Positions 10,369-35,888 of a stretch of DNA of 36,233 nt are shown here, piece by piece (the first letter of the stretch is position 1; every line of letters begins with the position of its first letter). A program made the translations under genes and the position numbers. This DNA is from Acidocella sp. GTDB lineage: Bacteria; Pseudomonadota; Alphaproteobacteria; Acetobacterales; Acetobacteraceae. The notes below the pieces were generated by a model, which saw only the letters and a list, made by a program, of their open reading frames with translations, had not been told where the DNA came from and made no database searches. The DNA lies in NCBI RefSeq assembly GCF_013044125.1, contig NZ_JABEVC010000190.1, positions 1 through 36,233 on the forward strand, given 5' to 3'.

Positions 10369-10749
10369 ATGACCACTGCTTATGTCATCTGCCGTCTTGA
10401 GGATATTCCCAGCCGCCAGGCGCGTGGCTTTCTGCTCGCGCGGCGCGGCGGAGCGGGGGAGGAGATTCCCTGGCCCGTGTTTATTGTGCGCTGGGGCCGG
10501 CATGTCTTTGCCTATGAGAATAAATGCCCGCACCAGGGCACGCGGCTGGACTGGGAAAAGGACCAGTTCATGGATGGTGCTGGCGAGCGGTTGATTTGCG
10601 GCAAGCACGGCGCGCTGTTTGAACTGGATACCGGCCGGTGCATCGTCGGCCCCTGCGCCGGCGCCGCGCTCATCTCAATTCCCGTCAGCGTCGAGGATGC
10701 AGACATCTGCTTCCTCGGCGTTGATCTGATGGAACCAGGCGAGGATTAA
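10369..10749 (+). CDS. Rieske-type [2Fe-2S] ferredoxin
   Basis: CPHQGTRLDW ... CGKHGALFELDTGRC, Rieske C-X-H/C-X2-H motif. Confidence 0.85.
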   Translation: MTTAYVICRLEDIPSRQARGFLLARRGGAGEEIPWPVFIVRWGRHVFAYENKCPHQGTRLDWEKDQFMDGAGERLICGKHGALFELDTGRCIVGPCAGAALISIPVSVEDADICFLGVDLMEPGED

Positions 10750-11336
10750 ACCGGGCGATTTTCGTTTCTGTTTCGCACTGGAGTTGTTAGCTTCAAGACC
10801 TCCTCGAAGGACTTCTCCTGATAGTCGGAGACGAAGCTGATCGCCTTATCGGCGAGTTGGTCCAGCTTGCCGCCGGTGCTCAGCTTTTTCATGTCGGTTT
10901 TGTCTAAGCCGATCAACTCCATCAACTCCATCCACACGGTGGATTCGTCGAGCGGCAGGATGTTGAAAGTGATGTTACCCATTTTCACACGGTATTTGGC
11001 AAGAAGATCGATGTTGTTGCAGAACATGAAGTAGGTGCCTGTGGGTGAGAGCAGGCCGCTCAGCACTTTGGCGGCATCGGCCAGATACGCGAAGGAGTGC
11101 AGGTAGCCGGCCAGAAAAGGCAGAGGGCTGTTATCCTCGGACGCAATGATGAAGACCTGCTCGATGGAGTATTCGGGCGGGCGTTTCTCATCGGCCAGTT
11201 GCTGCTGGAATTTAAGTGCGATGTCGCCGCGGAAGCCAAAGCGCCCGGGCTTTGTGGTTGGTGCTTTGAGCACTGCGTTGAGCAAACGGTGTTCCTGCTC
11301 CAAGCGATTCAGCGCCGTAGTCTCGATACTGGTCAT
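10746..11336 (-). CDS. protein of unknown function, 196 aa, divergent from iscA-nifU-nifS
   Basis: Long intact ORF opposite to the operons, MTSIETTALNRLEQEHRLLNAVLKAPTTKPGRFGFRGDIALKFQQQL...; candidate sigma54 promoter upstream; not recognised. Confidence 0.75.
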   Translation of the reverse strand: MTSIETTALNRLEQEHRLLNAVLKAPTTKPGRFGFRGDIALKFQQQLADEKRPPEYSIEQVFIIASEDNSPLPFLAGYLHSFAYLADAAKVLSGLLSPTGTYFMFCNNIDLLAKYRVKMGNITFNILPLDESTVWMELMELIGLDKTDMKKLSTGGKLDQLADKAISFVSDYQEKSFEEVLKLTTPVRNRNENRPV

Positions 11337-11391
11337 ACAAAAATTCCTGTCTTAGCTGGTCGTGGGCGCGTCACTGCGCTCTGGGCTCTAA

Positions 11392-11407
11392 GGCAAGGAG
11401 CGTGCCG
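11392..11407 (-). promoter_or_regulatory. candidate sigma54 promoter for the antisense unknown gene
   Basis: Minus strand CGGCACG-CTCC-TTGCC: one deviation in -24 and one in the last base of -12, exact spacing. Confidence 0.55.
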
Positions 11408-11444
11408 AAATTATGCGCCGCCGCAGGGGCGGTTTGGGGGGCTG

Positions 11445-11460
11445 TGTCGTCCAACCGACA
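11445..11460. promoter_or_regulatory. NifA upstream activator sequence
   Basis: TGT-CGTCCAACCG-ACA. Confidence 0.8.
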
Positions 11461-11468
11461 GCTACGCG

Positions 11469-11484
11469 TGTCGGGAAGCCGACA
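11469..11484. promoter_or_regulatory. NifA upstream activator sequence
   Basis: TGT-CGGGAAGCCG-ACA. Confidence 0.8.
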
Positions 11485-11543
11485 TGGCGCGGCAAAGCCC
11501 GACACGCTTGAAAAAAAGCCTGACAATTTATGTTGTTTGGTAT

Positions 11544-11559
11544 TGGCACGGGGGTTGCA
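11544..11559 (+). promoter_or_regulatory. sigma54 promoter of iscA-nifU-nifS-nifV operon
   Basis: TGGCACG-GGGG-TTGCA, consensus match. Confidence 0.92.
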
Positions 11560-11611
11560 TTGAAGCCCCTGTAGACCCGCGGTACGCCGCGCCAGGACAA
11601 CGGAGTGACCC

Positions 11612-11950
11612 ATGATCAACTTGACAGACAGCATCAACTTGACAGACAGCGCGTTGAATGCGGTGCGGACAGCGATGGCAGGCGCACCCGGCCCGGTGGC
11701 GGGTTTGCGCATCATGGTAGAGACCGGTGGCTGCGCCGGATACAAATACATGATGGGTCTGATTCCCGATTCCAATGCTGATGACGAGGTAGTGGAACGC
11801 GACGGCATTAAGTTATTTCTGGACCCCAAGAGCCGCGGCCTGCTGGCTGGCACCTCCATCGACTTTGTGGTGGCGCTGCAAGGTTCTGGTTTCACCTTTG
11901 AGAATCCCAACGTCACCAATAGCTGCTCGTGCGGCAAATCATTCGGGTAG
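11612..11950 (+). CDS. nif-associated IscA/HesB-type Fe-S carrier
   Basis: LTDSALNAVRTAM...GLRIMVETGGCAGYKYMMGL...NPNVTNSCSCGKSFG; three conserved Cys. Confidence 0.93.
   Translation: MINLTDSINLTDSALNAVRTAMAGAPGPVAGLRIMVETGGCAGYKYMMGLIPDSNADDEVVERDGIKLFLDPKSRGLLAGTSIDFVVALQGSGFTFENPNVTNSCSCGKSFG
11615..11650 (+). repeat. perfect 18-bp tandem duplication at the 5' end of the iscA-like CDS
   Basis: ATCAACTTGACAGACAGC repeated twice, encoding INLTDS INLTDS. Confidence 0.97.
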
Positions 11951-11958
11951 GGGGCGCC

Positions 11959-12249
11959 ATGTTCGTTCAGCAAGAGGCATCATCCCTCACCGCCGCCAGC
12001 GATGATCTGCGCCGGCAACTGATCGAAGCCGCCATCGAGGAAATCCGCCCCACTCTGCGCCGTGATGGCGGTGACTGCGTGCTGGTCGGCATTGAGGGCA
12101 AGACCGTGCAGGTGCGGCTCACAGGTGCGTGCATGTTCTGCAAGCTCAGCGGTGCCACGTTGGCAGGAATCCAGAGCCGTGTCGCAGAGAAATTAGGCGA
12201 GTTCGTGCGCCTGGTGCCCGTGCCCGGAGGCGTCAAGTCAGCCTACTGA
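11959..12249 (+). CDS. NifU C-terminal domain (Nfu-type) protein
   Basis: IEEIRPTLRRDGGDCVLVGIEGKTVQVRLTGACMFCKLSGATLAGIQ; CxxC motif; lacks IscU-like and 2Fe-2S domains. Confidence 0.93.
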   Translation: MFVQQEASSLTAASDDLRRQLIEAAIEEIRPTLRRDGGDCVLVGIEGKTVQVRLTGACMFCKLSGATLAGIQSRVAEKLGEFVRLVPVPGGVKSAY

Positions 12250-12272
12250 TCCGTCAGCAGCAAGGGGGCATT

Positions 12273-13448
12273 ATGCAGGTCTATCTTGACAACAACGCGA
12301 CAACCCGCACCGATCCGGCCGTGGTTTCGGCAATGATGCCGTATTTTAGCGAGTATTTCGGCAATGCCTCATCGGTGCATGGGCTGGGTGGCGGTGTCAG
12401 CGGGGCCCTGCGCCTTGCGCGGCGCCAGCTGATGACATTGCTGGGCGCACCGCAGGAACAGGAGATCGTCTTCTGCTCCGGTGGTACCGAAGCCAACAAT
12501 ACCGCTATTCACGTGGCGTTGGAGACCTTGCCCGAACGCGACGAGATCATCACGAGCACGGTCGAGCACGCGGCGATTCTCGCGCCATTGGCGTGGGCAC
12601 AGAAAACGCGCGGCATAAAATTGCGCCATATTCCTGTGGATACCCATGGACGGTTGGACCTTGACGCTTACCGTGCTGCCCTGGGCCCGCGCACGGCGCT
12701 GGTCAGCCTGATGTGGGCGAATAACGAGACGGGTACGGTGTTCCCTGTGGGCGCATTGGCGAAAATGGCGCACCAGGCCGGGGCGCTGTTCCACACCGAT
12801 GCTGTGCAGGTCATTGGCAAGCTGCCCATAGCGCTGGCGGGCACGCAGATCGACATGCTCTCCCTCTCTGGACATAAATTCCACGGTCCCAAGGGCGTGG
12901 GTGCGCTTTATGTCCGCAAGGGGATAAAGTTCAGCCCCCTGTTGCGCGGCGGGCACCAGGAACGCGGGCGCCGGGCGGGGACGGAGAATGTGCCCGCCAT
13001 TGTGGGGGTGGGCGCGGCGGCGGCGCTTGTGGATAGCGCCGCTTGGTCCCGCATGGCGGCGCTGCGCGACCGTCTGGAGGCCGGGATACTGGCGGCAGTA
13101 CCCGGCTGCCGGGTGAATGGCGATGCGGCGAACCGCCTGCCTAATACCTGCAATCTGGCTTTCGAGCATGTGGATGGCGAAGCCGTGCTGAACAATCTGG
13201 CCAGGGCGGGCATCGCCGCTTCGTCCGGTTCGGCCTGCACCTCGGGCAGCATGGAGCCCTCGCATGTGCTGCGCGCCATGCGCGTGCCGCTTAATGCGCT
13301 GCACGGCGCCGTGCGCTTTTCGCTCTCGGCCGAAACGTCCGAGGCCGAGATTGACTATGTGCTGGCGGTGCTGCCCGGCATTGCCGCCAAGGCGCGGGAG
13401 CGCTCGCCGCTCTGGGCCGATCATCTGAAAGCCGTGAACTTTACTTGA
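12273..13448 (+). CDS. nifS: cysteine desulfurase NifS
   Basis: MQVYLDNNATTRTDPAVVSAMMPYFSEYFGNASSVH...SGHKFHGPKGVGALYVRKG...SSGSACTSGSMEPSHVL. Confidence 0.97.
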   Translation: MQVYLDNNATTRTDPAVVSAMMPYFSEYFGNASSVHGLGGGVSGALRLARRQLMTLLGAPQEQEIVFCSGGTEANNTAIHVALETLPERDEIITSTVEHAAILAPLAWAQKTRGIKLRHIPVDTHGRLDLDAYRAALGPRTALVSLMWANNETGTVFPVGALAKMAHQAGALFHTDAVQVIGKLPIALAGTQIDMLSLSGHKFHGPKGVGALYVRKGIKFSPLLRGGHQERGRRAGTENVPAIVGVGAAAALVDSAAWSRMAALRDRLEAGILAAVPGCRVNGDAANRLPNTCNLAFEHVDGEAVLNNLARAGIAASSGSACTSGSMEPSHVLRAMRVPLNALHGAVRFSLSAETSEAEIDYVLAVLPGIAAKARERSPLWADHLKAVNFT

Positions 13449-20395: not shown

Positions 20396-22168
<1,773 letters not shown>

Positions 22169-22755: not shown

Positions 22756-22771
22756 TGTCGGCTTTACGACA
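22756..22771. promoter_or_regulatory. NifA upstream activator sequence
   Basis: TGT-CGGCTTTACG-ACA. Confidence 0.75.
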
Positions 22772-22912
22772 AGATGCGCCCGACAAGCGTCCCGCGCGGA
22801 GAATCCCCAGCAACTGGCGTGCCACTGTCCTGTAATGCCCGGCGGCGTCGCAAAACCGACGGTGTTTGTCGCGGCGCCGCCATTTTTGTAGCCCGGCGGC
22901 GGGCTTCAGGAA

Positions 22913-22928
22913 TGGCACGCGGTTTGCT
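22913..22928 (+). promoter_or_regulatory. sigma54 promoter of fdxN-nifT-SIR2-like operon
   Basis: TGGCACG-CGGT-TTGCT. Confidence 0.9.
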
Positions 22929-22969
22929 GATAGCCGGGTAGAACATGTCTTACCGGAAGGAGTCCGACA

Positions 22970-23164
22970 ATGGCCTACAAGATTATCGCCTCGCAATGCA
23001 CCGGCTGCTCGGCCTGCGAGTTTGAATGTCCCAATACCGCCATTTCGATGAAGGGCGACACTTTCATCATCAACCCCAAAAAATGCACCGAGTGCAAGGA
23101 TCATTTTGATTCGCCTAAATGCGCCGAGGTCTGCCCCGTCGATAATACCTGCGTGCCGGCGTGA
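22970..23164 (+). CDS. 2[4Fe-4S] ferredoxin, FdxN-like (copy 1)
   Basis: [64 protein letters not shown]. Confidence 0.93.
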
Positions 23165-23376
23165 AGGTGATGATCCGGCGTTCGCTGGACACCGGGCTGT
23201 GCATCTATGTGCCCAAAAAGGATCTTGAGGAGCCCATCGTCGAGGTGGAGCGCGAGAGTCTGTGGGGTGGCTGGGTGCGTGTGGCCAATGGCTGGGTGCT
23301 CGACCTGCCGGACATGCCAGCAGATACGCGCCTGCCCATTACCGTAAATGCGCGCAAGCGCGGCGAGGAGGAATAA
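23161..23376 (+). CDS. nifT: NifT/FixU protein
   Basis: [53 protein letters not shown] start overlaps fdxN stop. Confidence 0.92.
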
Positions 23377-23377
23377 A

Positions 23378-24226
23378 ATGAGTGCAGCGCTTGATACATT
23401 TGCCAAAGCGCGCACCGCATTGCGCACTATCGCGGAATTGCTGAAAACCGGCAGCGCCGTGCCCTATCTGGGGCCAGCCGTGGCGCAAGGCGCCCCCGGC
23501 CGGCGCACACCTGAAGCGCTGGCCGCGTTCCTTGGCACCAAAGTGGCGTTGCCGCGCCGGGCGAAAGGAAATGTCTGGGCGGCAGCGCAGCACATTGAGA
23601 GCTATAAGCACCGCAATACGGTGACAGCACTGATGAACGAGGCCTTCGCAGCCCCGGTGCCGCCGGCGCCGCTGCACAGCGCGCTGGCGCAGCTTAACCT
23701 GCCCCTGATTGTGGAAAGCTGGTATGACGACGCCATGCGTTCAGCCCTGGCAGGGCTGGATAATTGGGGCGAGGTCCAGGGCATCACGCGCGCTGGCATC
23801 GGCGAAGATCGTTGGTTCCGCTTTTATAATGCCGCGGGTGAGGCGACCTGCGCGACGCAGGCCGCAGAGTGGACGACGCTGCTTTACCGCCCGCATGGCG
23901 GTGTCACGCCCGCGCGTAACTATCTCATTTCCGATGCCGATTATGTCGAGGTGCTGACCGAGATCGACATCCAGACCCCGATCCCCGAGGAGGTGAGGCA
24001 CCGCCGCGCCGGGCGCAGCTTTCTGTTTCTCGGCTGCCGCTTCCACGACCAGATGCTGCGCTCCTACGCGCGCCAGATTATGAAGCGCAGCACCGCCACG
24101 CATTACGCGCTGCTGCCGGAGGGCGAGATCACGCGCAACGAAAGCCGCTTCCTGACCGAACAAGGCATTATCCCCGTGACGCTGCCATTCAACGATGCCA
24201 TTTCGGAACTTTTGTCCTGTCTGTGA
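23378..24226 (+). CDS. SIR2-like domain protein linked to nif genes
   Basis: IAELLKTGSAVPYLGPAV...VWAAAQHIESYKHRNTVTALMNEAF...LIVESWYDDAM...RSFLFLGCRFHDQMLRSYARQIMKRS: SIR2-like Rossmann pattern. Confidence 0.8.
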   Translation: MSAALDTFAKARTALRTIAELLKTGSAVPYLGPAVAQGAPGRRTPEALAAFLGTKVALPRRAKGNVWAAAQHIESYKHRNTVTALMNEAFAAPVPPAPLHSALAQLNLPLIVESWYDDAMRSALAGLDNWGEVQGITRAGIGEDRWFRFYNAAGEATCATQAAEWTTLLYRPHGGVTPARNYLISDADYVEVLTEIDIQTPIPEEVRHRRAGRSFLFLGCRFHDQMLRSYARQIMKRSTATHYALLPEGEITRNESRFLTEQGIIPVTLPFNDAISELLSCL

Positions 24227-31903: not shown

Positions 31904-31919
31904 TAGAATGGAGAAGATC

Positions 31920-32435
31920 ATGACGGAACAGACCCTTTTTATGCGCCTGGGCGGGGCGGAAGCCGTCGTCCGGCTCGTGGACGAATTTTATAATAACATG
32001 GAGCAACGCCCGGAATTCGCAGCCACGCGCGCACTGCATGCGCCATATCTCGCCGCCACGCGCGACGTGCTGAAGCTTTACCTGATGGAATGGACCGGCG
32101 GCCCGGCCAGCTACTCGTCCGCCAAGGGCCATCCGCGTTTGCGCCGCCGCCATATGCATATCCGCATCGGTGCGGCTGAGCGCGACGACTGGATGAACTG
32201 CATGAGTGCCGCCCTGACTTCGGCCGTGGCCAACGCCGAGGCGCGCGCCGAGATCACCGAGAATTTCGCCAATCTGGCGGATTGGATGCGCAACCAAGCC
32301 GGCAACCCGCATGATGCCGGGCAGAGTTTTGCCGGCACGGGCGTGCATGAACCCGCGCCCGCCGATTGCATGCACGTCGCAAATTCGACTGTCGAGAACC
32401 CGACAAAGAGCGGCTGCACGCCCAGCGAAGCCTAA
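31920..32435 (+). CDS. group II truncated haemoglobin with C-terminal extension
   Basis: LFMRLGGAEAVVRLVDEFYNNMEQRPEF...YLMEWTGGPASYSSAKGHPRLRRRHMHIRIGAAERDDWMNCMSAAL. Confidence 0.9.
   Translation: MTEQTLFMRLGGAEAVVRLVDEFYNNMEQRPEFAATRALHAPYLAATRDVLKLYLMEWTGGPASYSSAKGHPRLRRRHMHIRIGAAERDDWMNCMSAALTSAVANAEARAEITENFANLADWMRNQAGNPHDAGQSFAGTGVHEPAPADCMHVANSTVENPTKSGCTPSEA
32390..32405. promoter_or_regulatory. NifA upstream activator sequence inside the 3' end of the globin CDS
   Basis: TGT-CGAGAACCCG-ACA. Confidence 0.75.
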
Positions 32436-32454
32436 CCAAGCGCCGCCCCGGCAC

Positions 32455-32470
32455 TGGCACGGCGCTTGCA
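32455..32470 (+). promoter_or_regulatory. sigma54 promoter of sufBCD
   Basis: TGGCACG-GCGC-TTGCA, consensus match. Confidence 0.92.
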
Positions 32471-32507
32471 GTAACACCTTCCAGAGCGGATGGAGAGAGT
32501 AACGGGA

Positions 32508-33962
<1,455 letters not shown>

Positions 33963-33987
33963 ACCGTTTTGCACAAGGAGTCACGCC

Positions 33988-34746
33988 ATGACCAAGCTGC
34001 TCGAAGTTGAGAACCTGCACGCGCGCATTGCCGGCGGGCGCGACATTCTCAAGGGAATTTCGCTCAGCGTGGGGGCGGGCGAGGTTCATGCCATCATGGG
34101 CCCCAATGGCGCGGGCAAATCCACCCTCTCGGCGGTGCTCGCCGCCAAGCCGGGCTATGATGTCACGGCGGGCAGCATAAGCTACGGCGGCGCGGATATC
34201 GCCGATATGGCCGCCGATGAGCGCGCCCGCAAAGGCATCTTCCTGGCCTTCCAATATCCGGTGGAAATTCCGGGCGTGAACAACACCTATTTCCTGCGCG
34301 CGTCAGTGAACGCCATCCGGCGCGAGCGGGGCGAACCGGATCTCGATGCCTCGCAATTCCTCAAGCTCGTAAAAAAAAAGATGTCGCTGCTCGACATCAA
34401 GGACGATCTGCTCAAACGCGCCGTCAATGTCGGGTTTTCCGGCGGCGAGAAAAAGCGCAACGAGATTTTCCAGATGGCGATGCTGGAACCCAAGCTAGCC
34501 ATTCTTGACGAAACCGATAGCGGGCTGGACATTGACGCCCTGCGTGCCGTCTCCGATGGCGTGAACAAATTACGAGACCCAAACCGGGCGATCGTGATGA
34601 TCACGCATTATCAGCGTCTGCTGGATTATATCGAGCCTGATTTTGTGCATGTGCTGGCCAATGGGCGCATCGTCGCCTCTGGCGATAAATCCTTCGCGCG
34701 TGAACTGGAGAAGACCGGCTACGCGCATCTGGAACGCGCGGCATGA
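33988..34746 (+). CDS. sufC: Fe-S assembly ATPase SufC
   Basis: MTKLLEVENLHARIAGGRDILKGISLSVGAGEVHAIMGPNGAGKSTLSAVLA...FSGGEKKRNEIFQMAMLEPKLAILDETDSGLDIDAL. Confidence 0.97.
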   Translation: MTKLLEVENLHARIAGGRDILKGISLSVGAGEVHAIMGPNGAGKSTLSAVLAAKPGYDVTAGSISYGGADIADMAADERARKGIFLAFQYPVEIPGVNNTYFLRASVNAIRRERGEPDLDASQFLKLVKKKMSLLDIKDDLLKRAVNVGFSGGEKKRNEIFQMAMLEPKLAILDETDSGLDIDALRAVSDGVNKLRDPNRAIVMITHYQRLLDYIEPDFVHVLANGRIVASGDKSFARELEKTGYAHLERAA

Positions 34747-35888
34747 GCGCGGCGGTATTGGCGGCCGAGCCGCTCTGGCTGACGGCGCGCCGTGCAGTTG
34801 CCATGGACCGTTTTGCAGCACGGGGCTTGCCCACGGCCAAGGACGAAGCCTGGCGCTTCACCAATCTGCACGCCCTCACTGCCCGCGCCCCCAGTGGCAC
34901 GGCGCGCCTTACCTTAAGCGCCGCGCCGGAGGGCGTAACCTTTACCCGCCTTTCCACGCTGTTGGCGCAAGCGCCGGAGCGCCTGGAAGCGTTGCTGGCA
35001 CTGCCCGAAGGCGCGGATGCCCTCTCGGCACTCAATCTGGCCATGTTTAGCGACGGCTATGTGCTCGAAGTGGCGCCAGGCCTGCATCTCGATGCGCCGC
35101 TGGAGGTCAGCCACGACAACCAGGGCCGCGCCGTACATATGCGCGCGCTGGTGCTACTGGGTGAGGGCGCTTCCGCCACGCTGGTGGAACGCGCCAATGG
35201 CTCGGGCTGGAGCAACAATGTTACCCACGCCGTGTTGGGGGCGGGGGCGCGGCTGCGCCACGCCAAGCTCCAGGCCCAGGCGGCCGATTCCGTGCATCTC
35301 TCCGCCATGACACTGACTTTGGGCGCGGGCGCGGATCATGAATCCGTCATTCTCGCTTTGGGCGCAGGCGTCTCGCGTGAGGCGGTGACAACGGCGCTGA
35401 CCGGGGAAGGCGCCACCGCCTCGCTACGCGGCGCCTACCTGCTGGGGGGCAAGCAGCAGGCCAGCTTTGTGCCCGAATTGCTGCACCTCGCCCGCAACTG
35501 CACCAGCCGCCAACTGGTGAAAGGCGTGCTGGGCGGCACGGCGCATGGTGTGTTTTTGGGGCATATCGGCGTGCCGGAAGGGGGGGATGGCACCAATGCC
35601 GGCCAGACCAACCGTAACATCCTGCTCAGCCCCGGCGCGCGGGTGGATACGCGCCCGCGCCTGGAAATCCTGGCCGATGACGTGAAATGTAGCCACAGCG
35701 CCACGGTCGGCGCCCTCGATGAGACCGCCCTATTCTACCTACAATCGCGCGGCCTCGCCCCGCCTCAAGCGCGGCGGATGCTGATCGAGGCCTTCGCCGC
35801 CGATATCGTGGACGGGGCCGATCTCCCCGCGCCCCAGCGTGAATCGTTGCAGCAGGCCCTGTCCTTCTGGGCGGAGACGCTGGCATGA
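34743..35888 (+). CDS. sufD: Fe-S assembly protein SufD
   Basis: DEAWRFTNLHAL...PRLEILADDVKCSHSATVGALDETALFYLQSRGLAPPQARRMLIEAFAADIV. Confidence 0.95.
   Translation: MSAAVLAAEPLWLTARRAVAMDRFAARGLPTAKDEAWRFTNLHALTARAPSGTARLTLSAAPEGVTFTRLSTLLAQAPERLEALLALPEGADALSALNLAMFSDGYVLEVAPGLHLDAPLEVSHDNQGRAVHMRALVLLGEGASATLVERANGSGWSNNVTHAVLGAGARLRHAKLQAQAADSVHLSAMTLTLGAGADHESVILALGAGVSREAVTTALTGEGATASLRGAYLLGGKQQASFVPELLHLARNCTSRQLVKGVLGGTAHGVFLGHIGVPEGGDGTNAGQTNRNILLSPGARVDTRPRLEILADDVKCSHSATVGALDETALFYLQSRGLAPPQARRMLIEAFAADIVDGADLPAPQRESLQQALSFWAETLA

Follow-up and report, generated by a model that had tools for sequence, protein, structure and literature searches.

The nitrogenase accessory proteins NifW, NifT, NifZ, NifX/NafY and CowN are small, nif-linked, NifA-controlled and not universal. 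In outline, the product of ORF196, the gene described here, is alike; it differs from all of them in that neither sequence nor HMM comparison related it to a Pfam or NCBIfam family. The gene is carried on a 36,233-nt stretch of Acidocella sp. DNA (NZ_JABEVC010000190.1, positions 1 to 36,233), and this whole stretch is referred to below as the window.

The closest described genes have appeared in expression tables from nodulating bacteria, where the orthologs are already listed as hypothetical proteins (PMC4926349, PMC8305402). In Bradyrhizobium diazoefficiens, bll1754 has the same orientation as ORF196 and is flanked by blr1753, a Rieske gene, and blr1755, an iscN homolog (PMC8632152, PMC6515984). 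Its orthology is based on position, orientation and genus-wide conservation, and homologs at this position in other Bradyrhizobium are 61-70% identical to ORF196. The bll1754 transcript showed a log2 fold change of -4.8 in nifA-mutant nodules (PMC4926349 Table 3); in microoxia its protein increased by log2 +6.2, and in bacteroids its mRNA was up 121-fold (PMC6515984 Table 2). The two Paraburkholderia phymatum genes, Bphy_7752 and Bphy_7807, encode proteins that are 48% identical to ORF196 over the full length and end in the same NENRPV tail, but they are present as two copies, are divergent from nifH rather than iscA, and have no Rieske neighbor. Without nifA, they were found at log2 -11.54 and -11.11, respectively, in nodules, the lowest computable values in the symbiotic-plasmid gene table (PMC8305402). 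Expression of the orthologs is thus strongly NifA-dependent according to published nodule data. It should be noted that bll1754 was scored "-" for the NifA+RpoN1/2 regulon list of Hauser et al. 2007 (reproduced in PMC6515984 Table 2), as were nifS, nifT, nifW, fixB, and fixC (PMC6515984). Absence from that list is a feature of its stringency and not a defining criterion. No mutant of an ORF196 family gene was found in the literature searched.

The features of the window on which the analysis is based are as follows (strand in parentheses; a dot marks a site without strand).

10369..10749 (+): nif-type Rieske [2Fe-2S] ferredoxin gene, convergent neighbor that co-occurs with ORF196
10746..11336 (-): ORF196, gene for a 196-aa protein; intact, ATG start, type I family member, C-terminus ...NRNENRPV
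11392..11407 (-): putative sigma54 -24/-12 promoter of ORF196, CGGCACGCTCCTTGCC, with GG-N10-GC spacing, conserved in relatives
11445..11460 (.): putative NifA upstream activator site TGT-N10-ACA, TGTCGTCCAACCGACA, centered at about -72 from the predicted ORF196 transcription start
11469..11484 (.): putative NifA upstream activator site TGT-N10-ACA, TGTCGGGAAGCCGACA, centered at about -93 from the predicted iscA transcription start
11544..11559 (+): putative opposing sigma54 promoter of iscA-nifU-nifS, TGGCACGGGGGTTGCA
11612..11950 (+): iscA/HesB-type Fe-S assembly gene, divergent neighbor of ORF196
11929..12249 (+): nifU, 106 aa, comprising just the Nfu-like domain of the C-terminus (domain called by reading the sequence)
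12273..13448 (+): nifS cysteine desulfurase gene, with the start set at an internal ATG of ORF 12129-13448
20396..22168 (+): nifA, the activator gene (TIGR01817, 724 bits, over the cut-off)

An earlier sequence-only reading of this region had described an intact 196-aa ORF on the antisense strand, transcribed toward the Rieske operon, and both points were confirmed: ORF196 runs tail-to-tail with the Rieske gene, whose stop is overlapped by 4 nt at the ORF196 3' end. On the other side, ORF196 stands head-to-head with iscA across a 275-bp gap. The iscA-nifU-nifS order given for the opposite strand also holds, but the "nifU" in it is only the C-terminal Nfu-like part of 106 aa.

A homolog scan with one genome per bacterial and archaeal species returned 87 relatives, of which 80 were kept. 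These are 61-74% identical to ORF196 and come mostly from Bradyrhizobium, with others from Methylocystis, Xanthobacter, and Aquabacter. Comparison with the nearest relative gave a dN/dS of ∼0.12 (0.188/1.61), which indicates strong purifying selection at the amino-acid level. Since 80 homologs were kept at this identity and dN/dS is this low, ORF196 is taken to be protein-coding. The neighborhood is conserved as well: of the 84 loci examined, 71 have a Rieske gene no more than 700 bp from the 3' end, and 78 have a divergent iscA no more than 700 bp from the 5' end.

Within the 275-bp gap, the earlier reading had placed a correctly spaced minus-strand sigma54 site upstream of ORF196 and two TGT-N10-ACA sites between it and the iscA promoter, all of which were recovered (11407-11392 with GG-N10-GC; 11445-11460 and 11469-11484). 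The C of the GC element is at position -57 relative to the ATG, a plausible spacing for a promoter, and the TGT-N10-ACA enhancer agrees with the position expected in this regulon, about 70-150 bp upstream of the promoter. Such motifs are enriched across the whole window: TGT-N10-ACA occurs 12 times vs. 3.5 expected, and YGGCA-N6-TTGC nine times vs. 1.7 expected, counts that were reached in 0 of 100 shuffles in either case. A sigma70-like promoter, which would have pointed to transcription of ORF196 independently of NifA, was not found in 10600-11700.

The same layout is kept in relatives. Both opposed sigma54 sites were present in 76 of 78 ORF196-iscA gaps, and TGT-N10-ACA lay between the two promoters in 69 of them (these loci are mostly from Bradyrhizobium and hence not independent). 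Not one of 3900 mononucleotide shuffles of the gaps contained even both promoters. Opposed promoters with a NifA site were also seen in a relative of the window (L003), in Xanthobacter (L070), and in Methylocystis (L059). Because exactly one TGT-N10-ACA was found in 64/78 gaps, the usual arrangement, as judged from these motifs, is one enhancer shared by the two directions, whereas two are present in the window. The gene for NifA itself lies within the same window as ORF196, and we infer that ORF196 is under NifA control in the window's own organism. The membership of ORF196 in the NifA regulon proposed by the sequence-only reading is therefore upheld by the conserved control region and the published nifA-mutant nodule data. 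Its description as a new member needs qualification: NifA regulation of the orthologs is already in published data, and ORF196 is new only as an unnamed and unstudied family.

Similar control elements were seen elsewhere in the island. A sufB-sufC-sufD operon (window 32390-35888) lies downstream of a TGT-N10-ACA (32390) and a strong sigma54 site (32455, TGGCACGGCGCTTGCA), and since these two elements precede it, the SUF Fe-S machinery of the nif island looks NifA-controlled. In this same nif island, only the C-terminal domain of NifU is left. Just before the suf operon lies a gene for a truncated globin of bacterial type (31908-32432). Another TGT-N10-ACA (22756), with two opposed sigma54-like sites (22824, minus strand; 22913, plus strand), was detected in the interval 22756-24226, followed by a small ORF that resembles ferredoxins (22970-23164) and by a SIR2-like gene (23348-24226). 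The nif region of Paraburkholderia aromaticivorans likewise contains a SIR2-family gene.

We examined the distribution of the family against that of NifD. In a phylum-wide sample, all 13 carriers of the family had NifD (called over the curated cut-off) vs. 41 of 399 genomes overall (p ∼2e-14, on the assumption of independent genomes). Within the window's own genus, a single further carrier was sampled, and it is also the single further genome with NifD. Among 199 genomes of Bradyrhizobium (the genus of G234), 124 had both genes, 69 had neither, three had ORF196 only and three had NifD only (G974, G999, and G1116); NifD was thus present in 124 of 127 carriers. The co-occurrence with nif that the earlier reading named as a check is borne out in both samples. 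Of the NifD-less carriers, G1092 and G1111 gave partial hits to nif genes, whereas the homolog of the third, G983, is 31-33% identical and lies away from nif genes (L115:4623-5162; the genome is 89% complete with no detected NifD, and the contig is without nif genes). This homolog keeps the body of the protein, lacks the DEKRPP loop and the NENRPV tail, and is the sole homolog outside a nif cluster. Apart from this one exception, the family shows the restriction to diazotrophs and the nif linkage that mark the broad class of nitrogenase accessory proteins. A decayed ORF196 copy with two stops was observed ∼3 kb from a second nifD in another genome (G1031:C2:458486-458875).

The family is absent from 28 of the 41 sampled NifD genomes, and a more sensitive profile (A3) found no homolog in those 28 (the hits at E 0.06 and 1.5 are at chance level). 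We concluded that the ORF196 family is not a core requirement of nitrogen fixation. Its distribution follows that of a close nif-type Rieske protein, which was found in 5/5 sampled alphaproteobacterial NifD genomes with ORF196 and in 0/6 without it, a correlation drawn from few and related genomes. In one of the five (G385), the Rieske gene is present but unlinked to ORF196.

Two subfamilies were distinguished. Type I comprises the window-like proteins that end in NENRPV and is represented among alpha-, beta-, and gammaproteobacteria. Type II proteins (loci L102-L108) are 21-25% identical to the window protein; the seven sampled genomes in which they were found belong to other families, and every one of these genomes has NifD. 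They resemble ORF196 in that they are homologous by profile (E 1e-11 to 3e-16), occur in NifD genomes and in several cases lie inside nif clusters; they differ in the absence of the DE-RPP motif, in a tail of the form G-[AP]-[VI] instead of NENRPV, and in their neighbors. One type II gene is located between an LRV-FeS gene and nifEN. At L104:4041-5968 and L106:4994-6334, type II genes adjoin a nicotinate phosphoribosyltransferase gene in genomes with draT, and the L104 locus also has an isochorismatase-family gene (possible nicotinamidase); this neighborhood perhaps reflects NAD salvage linked to ADP-ribosylation of NifH. Among type I, the Paraburkholderia/Cupriavidus copies have neither Rieske nor iscA as a neighbor; beside them are an ankyrin gene and a truncated globin gene, with draT instead of the globin in G444. 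At L109:5213-6642, draT is 47 bp downstream of the ORF196 homolog on the same strand, divergent from nifHDK. Residues L18, R36, G37, N108, K150, and K157 are invariant across both types; within type I, there is almost no variation in the ADEKRPP loop (∼48-54) or in the NRNENRPV tail at the C-terminus.

The family had gone unrecognized in the earlier reading, and database searches left it so. ORF196 matched nothing in sequence searches of Pfam, NCBIfam, PHROGs, and PDB, and HMMs of the named nif families (NifW, NifT, NifZ, NifX, NifY/NafY, NifQ, CowN, DraG/DraT) gave no match. The AlphaFold2 model (pLDDT 88.7, pTM 0.86) had no counterpart among PDB folds (best E 0.053, TM 0.29), and results against a viral fold library were empty or at chance; the comparison covered solved (PDB) and viral folds rather than predicted cellular structures. 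No well-characterized family outside nif was thus matched by sequence or fold in these collections. A phage origin was rejected for want of a match. Low-pLDDT stretches of the model (46-53 and 192-196), where the low confidence may stem from a shallow alignment and not from real flexibility, contain or lie beside the ADEKRPP loop and the NRNENRPV tail. The type I alignment has no conserved metal-binding cysteine/histidine set, and the window's protein has a single Cys; a metal carrier is therefore not favored, and an Fe-S scaffold was rejected for lack of a conserved cysteine set.

Taken together, ORF196 is almost certainly a nif-dedicated member of the NifA regulon and very probably an overlooked nitrogenase helper. 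The fuller explanation that we prefer stands at about an even chance. The ORF196 product would be a soluble, cytosolic accessory protein dedicated to nitrogenase. When oxygen and fixed nitrogen are low, NifA bound at the enhancer site(s) between the divergent sigma54 promoters would switch on both ORF196 and iscA-nifU-nifS. The protein may then serve the nif Fe-S assembly module and the nif Rieske ferredoxin as a non-catalytic adaptor, or as a partner in maturation or electron transfer, and would dock by two invariant flexible segments, the ADEKRPP loop and the NRNENRPV tail. The non-catalytic reading is suggested by the lack of a conserved metal-binding Cys/His set and of a recognizable enzyme fold. 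Docking by these motifs fits because both segments are near-invariant, lie in or beside low-pLDDT parts, and are absent from the G983 homolog. A partner in Fe-S assembly or linked to the Rieske protein appears most likely given the conserved alphaproteobacterial neighbors and the 5-vs-6 co-occurrence with Rieske, which holds even when the genes are unlinked; the link is not universal, since the Paraburkholderia/Cupriavidus copies have other neighbors. The adaptor mechanism itself, judged from gene neighborhood and the predicted structure, is proposed tentatively, at somewhat less than an even chance.

The chief rival is that ORF196, instead of helping to build Fe-S clusters, protects nitrogenase (NifH) against O2/NO or contributes to its post-translational shut-down. 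We consider this unlikely but worth weighing: in Paraburkholderia and Methylococcus the gene comes directly after a group II truncated hemoglobin gene and is divergent from nifH, in G444 it is followed after 47 bp by draT in the same orientation, type II genes have nicotinate/nicotinamide salvage genes as neighbors in genomes that carry draT, and a globin is also found in the window's island. However, the conserved neighbors in alphaproteobacteria are Fe-S assembly and Rieske genes rather than a globin, and draT is absent from the sampled alphaproteobacterial carriers, for which reason draT was rejected as a general functional partner. An enzyme or a ligand-binding protein for a small molecule (e.g., a cofactor precursor), working through residues kept in both subfamilies, is less probable still. 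R36, N108, K150, and K157 (and nearly E137 and K146) are indeed shared by type I and type II despite an overall identity of 21-25%, but no enzyme family or fold was matched, and the linear motifs best conserved in type I fall within low-confidence parts of the model. That ORF196 is a passenger of nif clusters that contributes nothing to nitrogen fixation, or that it regulates the Rieske gene by antisense, might be read from the 4-nt tail-to-tail overlap, the decayed copy beside a secondary nifD (G1031:C2) and the NifD genomes without ORF196, but is very improbable in view of the purifying selection at the amino-acid level, the conserved promoter, the unlinked copies kept in NifD genomes, the NifA dependence of both P. 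phymatum duplicates (PMC8305402) and the detection of the bll1754 protein in the microoxic proteome (PMC6515984).

Returning to the nitrogenase-dedicated adaptor, it is conceivable, and we say so with more reserve than for the mechanism above, that ORF196 founds an accessory family with a fold absent from the PDB, whose loop and tail dock on a Nif partner, and that it would expose a so far undescribed step of nitrogenase maturation (Fe-S delivery or Rieske-linked electron transfer) restricted to some proteobacterial lineages. The known nif accessory genes are commonly regarded as an almost complete set, and this set serves as the parts list for moving nitrogenase to new hosts. The ORF196 family is as tightly NifA-controlled as nifHDK, strongly selected, and present in nearly all sampled Bradyrhizobium NifD genomes. 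With neither a name, a Pfam model nor a mutant to date, it is a candidate missing part that is directly testable.
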